In this document: positions 60,908 to 62,079 of the stretch, one piece after another
Layout of the letters: every line of letters begins with the position of its first letter
Numbering within the stretch: the first letter of the stretch is position 1
From: Synechococcus sp. KORDI-52
GTDB taxonomy: Bacteria; Cyanobacteriota; Cyanobacteriia; PCC-6307; Cyanobiaceae
Assembly (NCBI RefSeq): GCF_000737595.1
Contig: NZ_CP006271.1
Coordinates: 496,001 to 560,000 of the forward strand
Reading direction: 5' to 3'
DNA length: 64,000 nt
The notes under the pieces: generated by a model
Told to the model about the DNA's origin: nothing
Seen by the model: only the letters and a program-made list of their open reading frames with translations
Databases searched by the model: none
Made by a program: the position numbers and the translations under genes

Positions 60908-60958
60908 AGATCTATTCAATTAGATGTCGTGCCGACTGCAATCCTCGAATTATCCACC

Positions 60959-61684
60959 ATGCATCCAACTTCATCTGACCTGATCCTCAAGGCTTCAGGC
61001 GTTAATGTTTACTACGGTGAAAGTCACATTCTTCGGGATGTCGATCTGCAGATCCCCAAAGGTGAAATGGTCTGCCTGATTGGCCGCAATGGCGTGGGTA
61101 AAACCACATTCCTGAAAACATTGATTGGTCTGCTCCAGCAGAAAAGTGGTTCGATTCAATACGAGTCAAATCAGCTGCTGAAGCAGCCCCCGTATCGGCG
61201 TGCACGCCATGGCATTGGATATGTTTCTCAAGGTCGTGACATCATTCCCCGACTGACGGTTCGCGAGAACCTGATGCTTGGTATGGAAGCTCTACCTGGC
61301 GGAATGGGGAAAAACCGTCATATCGATCCCTTCATTTATGAACTCTTCCCCATTCTTGAGGAGTTTCTGAATCGGCGTGGTGGTGACTTGAGCGGCGGTC
61401 AACAACAGCAGTTGGCCATTGCTCGTGCGTTGCTTGGTCAGCCAAAGTTGCTTCTGCTTGATGAGCCGACTGAGGGGATTCAGCCATCGATCATTCTTGA
61501 CATCGAACGGGCTGTTCAGCGCATCATCAAGGAGACCGGGATCAGCGTTCTGCTTGTTGAACAGCACCTCCACTTTGTACGTCAATCGAACTTTTATTAC
61601 GCCATGCAGCGTGGTGGAATCGTCTCCAGTGGCCCCACTGCTTCCTTATCAGAAGCGGTCATTCAGGAGTTTCTGACTGTTTGA
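60959..61684 (+). CDS. urtE: Urea ABC transporter ATPase UrtE
   Basis: About 241 residues from ATG 60959; GTG 60929 in the same frame adds ten residues. 'GVNVYYGESHILRDVDL' is the typical UrtE start. Walker A 'GRNGVGKTTFLKTLIG', signature 'LSGGQQQQLAIARALLG', Walker B 'LLLLDEPTEGIQPS'. It is the final gene of urtABCDE and is followed by an extreme C/G-tract palindrome. Confidence 0.95.
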   Translation: MHPTSSDLILKASGVNVYYGESHILRDVDLQIPKGEMVCLIGRNGVGKTTFLKTLIGLLQQKSGSIQYESNQLLKQPPYRRARHGIGYVSQGRDIIPRLTVRENLMLGMEALPGGMGKNRHIDPFIYELFPILEEFLNRRGGDLSGGQQQQLAIARALLGQPKLLLLDEPTEGIQPSIILDIERAVQRIIKETGISVLLVEQHLHFVRQSNFYYAMQRGGIVSSGPTASLSEAVIQEFLTV

Positions 61685-61695
61685 ATCCCACTCAA

Positions 61696-61734
61696 CCCCC
61701 CCCCCCGCAACAGCTGTTGCGGGGGGGGGGGGGG
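61696..61734. repeat. C11/G14 palindrome with core GCAACAGCTGTTGC
   Basis: Eleven C residues (61696-61706), the self-complementary GCAACAGCTGTTGC (61707-61720), then fourteen G residues (61721-61734). Bases 61696-61731 form one perfect 36-bp inverted repeat. It lies 12 bp after the urtE stop, between the convergent urtE and fmdB genes. It can form a very stable hairpin, without a T tract for classic termination. Homopolymer length may be variable or mis-sequenced. Confidence 0.9.
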
Positions 61735-61749
61735 ACTGATTTCGACAGT

Positions 61750-62025
61750 TCAGCAACCGCGATTCAGCATCCAAGGACGTGTGGTGCTTTCCTGCAGCCG
61801 TGGTCTGGTGGATGGTTCCCGCATTTTTTTGGTGACGAGTTCAGGTTCCTTCCGTTCAGATTTCAAGCGCAATCCACCTGTGAGCATCATTGGTGGATTG
61901 AACAGACGCCGTCCCTCACTTCCGCACTCCGGACATTCCGTTCTGGTGTCACGATCTGAGATCGATCTCCAAACGTCATAGGTGGGACATTGGTTGGTGG
62001 AACAGGCGAATTCGTAAACAGGCAT
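61750..62025 (-). CDS. fmdB: FmdB-family zinc-ribbon protein
   Basis: 91 residues. The N-terminus 'MPVYEFACSTNQCPTYDVWR' and 'TECPECGSEGRRLFNPPMML' contain the CxxxxxxC and CxxC pairs of the FmdB/CxxC_CXXC_SSSS zinc ribbon. FmdB was first described next to formamidase genes as a possible regulator. Here it lies directly downstream of fmdA, separated by a strong hairpin. The role is not proven. Confidence 0.85.
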   Translation of the reverse strand: MPVYEFACSTNQCPTYDVWRSISDRDTRTECPECGSEGRRLFNPPMMLTGGLRLKSERKEPELVTKKMREPSTRPRLQESTTRPWMLNRGC

Positions 62026-62041: not shown

Positions 62042-62079
62042 AAACAAAGGAGTCAACCATGTGATTGACTCCTTTGTTT
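62042..62079. terminator. Strong hairpin between fmdA and fmdB
   Basis: AAACAAAGGAGTCAA (62042-62056) pairs perfectly over 15 bp with TTGACTCCTTTGTTT (62065-62079) around an 8-nt loop. Its A/T arms work in both directions. On the fmdA strand it would reduce read-through into fmdB. Confidence 0.75.

Follow-up and report, generated by a model that had tools for sequence, protein, structure and literature searches.

A palindrome with C11 and G14 arms between the convergent 3' ends of urtE and an fmdB-type gene in Synechococcus sp. KORDI-52 is probably a variant of a bidirectional terminator hairpin

The short spacer between urtE and a convergent gene of the FmdB zinc-ribbon family in Synechococcus sp. 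KORDI-52 holds a perfect 36-bp palindrome built from a C11 and a G14 tract. The palindrome is probably a bidirectional terminator hairpin for the 3' ends of urtE and the opposing fmdB-type gene, whose arms became long homopolymers while its A/T tails were lost. Judging from the sequence comparisons described below, homology to an ordinary bidirectional terminator appears to be the main explanation of the element, and the tail-less homopolymer form would be a variant of it. The features of the window, i.e. the whole 64-kb stretch of DNA that was analysed, on which this reading draws are the following:

60929..61684, + strand: urtE, urea ABC transporter ATP-binding subunit (TIGR03410, 322.7 bits, cut-off 285.8)
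61696..61731, no strand assigned: perfect 36-bp palindrome, a putative stretched bidirectional terminator-like hairpin (sequence, fold z-scores)
61696..61706, no strand assigned: C11 tract, left hairpin arm (sequence)
61707..61720, no strand assigned: palindromic core GCAACAGCTGTTGC (5-bp inner stem and 4-nt loop in the RNA fold)
61721..61734, no strand assigned: G14 tract, right arm (first 11 G pair with C11, last 3 unpaired)
61750..62025, - strand: FmdB-family zinc-ribbon gene, convergent with urtE (TIGR02605, 43.4 bits, cut-off 31.3; PF09723)

The TGA stop codon of urtE (61682-61684, + strand) and the stop codon of the fmdB-type gene (61750-61752, - strand) leave a spacer of 65 bp (61685-61749), in which the palindrome lies. 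UrtD is encoded upstream of urtE, and the formamidase FmdA beyond the fmdB-type gene. The open reading frames and the TIGR03410 and TIGR02605 matches, both above cut-off, corroborate the earlier note, which had placed the palindrome after urtE between two convergent genes. A separate hairpin with a 15-bp stem (AAACAAAGGAGTCAA / TTGACTCCTTTGTTT) was found at 62042-62079 of the window, between fmdA and the fmdB-type gene, and hairpins resembling it, with T tails, were listed in three relatives.

Direct reading of the sequence likewise bore out the perfect 36-bp palindrome of C11 and G14 that the earlier note had described, with the last three G (61732-61734) left without a partner. The palindrome is real and above chance: it is the longest in the window, where the next two measure 16 bp, and 40 first-order Markov simulations of the window produced none longer than 20 bp (mean maximum 16). 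C or G runs in these simulations reached at most 13 (mean maximum 9.45), and C7 words showed no excess in the window, with 20 matches against a shuffle mean of 27. Of the 34 genus genomes, 17 contain a C/G tract of 11 or more. The earlier claim that long G and C tracts are rare is therefore only partly right. Matched arms are rarer: C8...G8 (gap 3-24) was found in 3/34 genus genomes and C10...G10 in 5/386 phylum genomes, with KORDI-52 counted in both times. Reversed, G-first patterns, which can also fold back, were about as rare (2/34 genus and 6/386 phylum genomes). Single C/G runs are thus less remarkable, and the unusual part is the pairing of two tracts as the arms of one hairpin. Besides KORDI-52, four phylum genomes have C10...G10. 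In three of them (G106, G393, and G168) the pattern lies in G/C-only or G/C-rich stretches, every listed place being near a contig end, while the fourth (G094) had imperfect copies within contigs. A further C8...G8 match in the genus, in G031, was a G/C-rich stretch without a clean hairpin.

Two other identities were considered and rejected. The element is not a repeated one, as the core GCAACAGCTGTTGC is single-copy in the genome and, of seven distinct C6...G6 places, occurs at the urtE spacer alone. An Rfam family was rejected because the matches were at chance level and far under threshold (mir-4433 at 29.6 and 27.3 bits against a gathering score of 77, and Pab91 at 22.1 against 71).

As RNA, either strand is predicted to form a 16-bp stem capped by a 4-nt loop, in which 14 of the 16 pairs are G-C, and the fold z-scores were -5.60 for the + strand and -6.85 for the - strand. 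When the + strand of the window was scanned in 60-nt pieces with a step of 5, the palindrome gave the most stable fold, at -46.9 kcal/mol compared with -39.7 kcal/mol for the runner-up. Folding on both strands thereby supports a very stable hairpin, as had been proposed. The stem starts 11 nt past the urtE stop and 18 nt past the fmdB stop (15 nt to the edge of G14), so that a stable GC-rich hairpin follows each stop codon at short distance, and a single hairpin between two converging stops can fold on both strands, as is expected of a bidirectional terminator.

The tails are a different matter. On the + strand, the 8 nt after the paired stem are GGGACTGA with 1 T, and those past the whole G tract are ACTGATTT with 4 T; on the - strand, the 8 nt after the paired stem are TTGAGTGG with 3 T. 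A contiguous U-run right after the stem, as in a canonical terminator, is absent from the 8 nt inspected on both the + and the - strand. One defining feature is thus missing, and the element was consequently filed as terminator-derived and terminator-like rather than as a canonical member of the class. A terminator scan tool listed nothing at the palindrome, which is no evidence either way because it equally missed the hairpins of three relatives described below (G028, G009, and G014); it did list the hairpin of a fourth, G029, in the fmdB direction.

The fold also bears on whether the G tract acts as a G-quadruplex, which the earlier note had offered as an option. The G arm folded alone did give a quadruplex-containing structure at -22.8 kcal/mol, but with the C arm present and quadruplexes allowed the hairpin was kept at -41.2 kcal/mol (RNA energies only). 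Moreover, four G3 runs with 1-nt loops would need 15 G, one more than the tract has, and the four closest relatives have only G3 to G6 at this place, which makes a quadruplex element extremely improbable.

The origin of the hairpin was traced through relatives. A protein search with UrtE gave urtE-like matches in 59/59 genomes, and the downstream sequence was read at the best 30 loci; folding covered the 14 spacers among these, KORDI-52 included, whose urtE is most similar. Of the genomes searched, the four closest relatives, G028, G009, G029, and G014, whose UrtE proteins are 98, 97, 95, and 95% identical, have kept the downstream sequence, in which the convergent gene ends. In all four (4/4) the urtE spacer carries a hairpin of the same origin, with like core ends (GCAAC/GTTGC or near) and an imperfect core. 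Their C tracts measure 6, 5, 2, and 5 and their G tracts 6, 5, 3, and 6, in the same order of genomes; the C tracts are preceded by an A-rich run and the tails are mostly A-rich or T-rich:

G028, urtE spacer hairpin: A6-C6-GCAAC...GTTGC-G6-TTTGTTTT
G009, urtE spacer hairpin: A5-G-C5...G5-C-TTTG
G029, urtE spacer hairpin: A6-CCTCC...GGG
G014, urtE spacer hairpin: C5...G6-TTTT

C/G arms with A-rich and T-rich tails are the anatomy of a bidirectional intrinsic terminator, although the tails are uneven: the 8 nt that follow the arms hold 7, 4, 2, and 5 T on the + strand and 6, 5, 5, and 4 on the - strand (same order). The ten pairs of the shared stem were formed in 92% of 50 cells compared with 46-60% when the partner was slid by 1-3 columns, a count over five sequences in which no pair changed on both sides and the shuffle control was uninformative, so that it has no power to detect covariation. 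The KORDI-52 element resembles bidirectional intrinsic terminators in having a GC-rich hairpin just past both convergent stops, and in having relatives' hairpins of the same origin that are mostly A-rich before and T-rich after the arms. It differs in its C11/G14 arms, in lacking a contiguous U-run on either strand, and in a loop region that is palindromic too. The suggestion that the palindrome is a mixed terminator for the convergent genes is hence supported by its position and by the relatives, whose hairpins share its origin and look like terminators, and weakened by the missing canonical U-tails.

Beyond the closest relatives, a hairpin lay inside the spacer in 10 of the 14 folded cases, KORDI-52 included, some of them of unrelated sequence, such as A7G6...C6T5 in G026 and ...CCCCAT7 in G007. 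The spacer thus tends to keep a hairpin while the sequence of the hairpin turns over. In the remaining 4 of the 14 folded spacers (G021, G022, G023, and G019) no such hairpin was found beside urtE; in the first three, another hairpin extends into the last part of the fmdB-type gene, and G019 lacks both kinds. Across the genus, the pattern C6G...CG6 occurs at 12 places, and at 8 of these T makes up five or more of the 8 nt that follow the arms on one strand or both. These 12 places are no enrichment, as the reversed pattern, also able to fold back, has 32.

The lack of a U-run on both strands, the variable tails of the relatives (in G029 only 2 of 8 nt are T on the urtE side), and the 4 of 14 spacers without a hairpin of this kind would also fit a decayed terminator, in which the hairpin is left, both U-tails are gone, and nothing is terminated any more, the whole being neutral debris of tract expansion. 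However, all 36 bp are perfectly paired though both arms have changed, and unconstrained decay should leave mismatches; a decayed terminator is possible, but somewhat unlikely.

A second case emerged from the genus pattern search, which located a C9...G9 match in G029 between ftsH (assigned by its Peptidase_M41 and AAA domains) and a convergent 51-aa DUF2256 gene. This spacer reads AGTAAA-C9-GTCT...AGAC-G9-TTTACT and is perfectly paired (G029:C1, about 1352141-1352191; L205 1485-1535). The orthologous ftsH spacers of KORDI-52, G028, G009, and G014 have arms of C5 and G4-5 flanked by A and T runs, where the G014 row was read by eye and G011, G016, and G007, with partial matches and other hairpins, were left out. 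Across these spacers the A and T runs are shorter where the C/G tracts are longer. C9 and G9 in G029 against C5 and G4-5 elsewhere therefore indicate a like change at another terminator in another species.

Length changes by slippage, as raised in the earlier note, are plausible inasmuch as tract length differs between species at both the urtE and the ftsH spacer, but the total spacer length has not grown with the tracts: the distance from the urtE stop to the anchor is 66 nt in KORDI-52 compared with 63, 66, 66, and 70 nt in G028, G009, G029, and G014. The tracts have replaced the tails without making the spacer longer, and plain slippage is thus no explanation. The arms may have arisen by C/G slippage, the second being matched to the first through hairpin-templated (template-switch) copying or through selection for pairing. 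Template switching is described as able to create and maintain stems in a study of how hairpin arms change together in RNA genes (PMC8794818), and the co-changing arms seen here could stem from such a process.

Homopolymers of C11/G14 length are slippage-prone, and the tract lengths differ between species at the urtE and ftsH spacers, which together recall the contingency tracts of phase variation, i.e. long C or G mononucleotide tracts that are expected to slip. Slippage would then switch termination and hence antisense read-through into urtE or fmdB. In contrast to such contingency tracts, the tracts here pair with each other as the arms of a single hairpin, which lies in a 3' spacer and outside both urtE and the fmdB-type gene; this pairing may buffer changes in length, and the comparison covers one genome per species. 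A role as a contingency tract is accordingly very unlikely.

Under the preferred reading, a terminator hairpin shared by both genes, the RNA would fold into the 16-bp stem as the polymerase leaves urtE or the fmdB-type gene. The stem may then pause or release the polymerase and block read-through into the opposing gene, and the hairpin may shield the mRNA 3' end from exonucleases. Release would be weaker than at a canonical terminator because no U-run stands behind the stem, and the element may serve mainly as a 3'-end stabiliser and a read-through barrier. REP-type 3'-end stabilisers of E. coli, as discussed in PMC13289151, are similar in being strong GC hairpins that lack a U-tract and could still protect the 3' end of an mRNA, and differ in that the core here occurs once in the genome.

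The tract lengths themselves require caution. The 454 chemistry is weak on homopolymers. The KORDI genomes are described as sequenced by 454 GS-FLX Titanium, assembled with Newbler, and closed at gaps by PCR and primer walking (PMC7522525), and long run lengths are therefore soft. It is quite possible that the length of the tracts was miscalled. Taken to its full extent, such an artefact would mean that C11/G14 is a misreading of an ordinary C5-6/G5-6 terminator with A/T tails, which would fit a spacer of unchanged length although the tails are gone. Among the C9...G9 matches listed from public draft genomes, 72 of 120 lay at most 200 bp from a contig end, a tally that rests on one match per locus and takes 30 mid-contig loci to be distant from an end without measurement; such sequences thus often mark assembly trouble. 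Several of these listed matches (L085-L204) are pure fold-backs of a C-run and a G-run and have the look of an assembly or sequencing signature. However, 454 errors alter run lengths and are not known to turn A and T into C and G. A comparable C9/G9 hairpin in G029 and the single tracts of at least 11 in 17/34 genus genomes also speak against an artefact of this kind, so that it is unlikely. The whole element is unlikely to be an assembly artefact as well, because the hairpin core is common to the relatives. Should the tracts prove to be miscalls, their value would be only that of a warning about C/G hairpins in genome sequences.

Cyanobacteria are reported to lack Rho, and in S. elongatus 22% of transcription units are reported to end at canonical intrinsic terminators (PMC13289151); against this background, an unusual end at urtE would not be strange. 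Nevertheless, the ends without U-tracts in S. elongatus are reported to be broadly without strong structure (75/163 structured; PMC13289151), and a hairpin-only end would thus not be typical of that species. For Bacillus cereus, terminators shared by convergent genes are described as more conserved than one-way ones (PMC5381666). A narrow search of open-licence literature found no paper on homopolymer-armed terminators in marine Synechococcus. The urtE spacer touches the wider question of how cyanobacteria without Rho end most of their transcripts, and it provides a natural test pair, since its hairpin is ordinary in one species and of the tail-less C11/G14 form in another. The site also shows how two hairpin arms can change together. 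A more speculative extension, and quite an unlikely one, is that convergent terminators of marine Synechococcus, which has no Rho, recurrently become 'stem-only': matched arms formed by slippage and hairpin-templated copying would replace the U-tails, and the long G-C stem alone would end transcription or fix the 3' end in both directions. If this were true, the urtE/fmdB and ftsH/DUF2256 spacers would be two independent, and the first, examples of such a class.

Other long C/G tracts were observed as well. KORDI-52 has three more, C16 (L020 1501-1516, at G000:C1:733224), G16 (L075 1065-1080), and C14 (L076 1100-1113), each without a matching partner tract nearby, and no match to the G16 and C14 loci was found in the seven other genomes searched. 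In G010, a member of the genus, a G12 tract stands close behind a terminator-like hairpin with T8 and A6 runs (L246 1440-1530).
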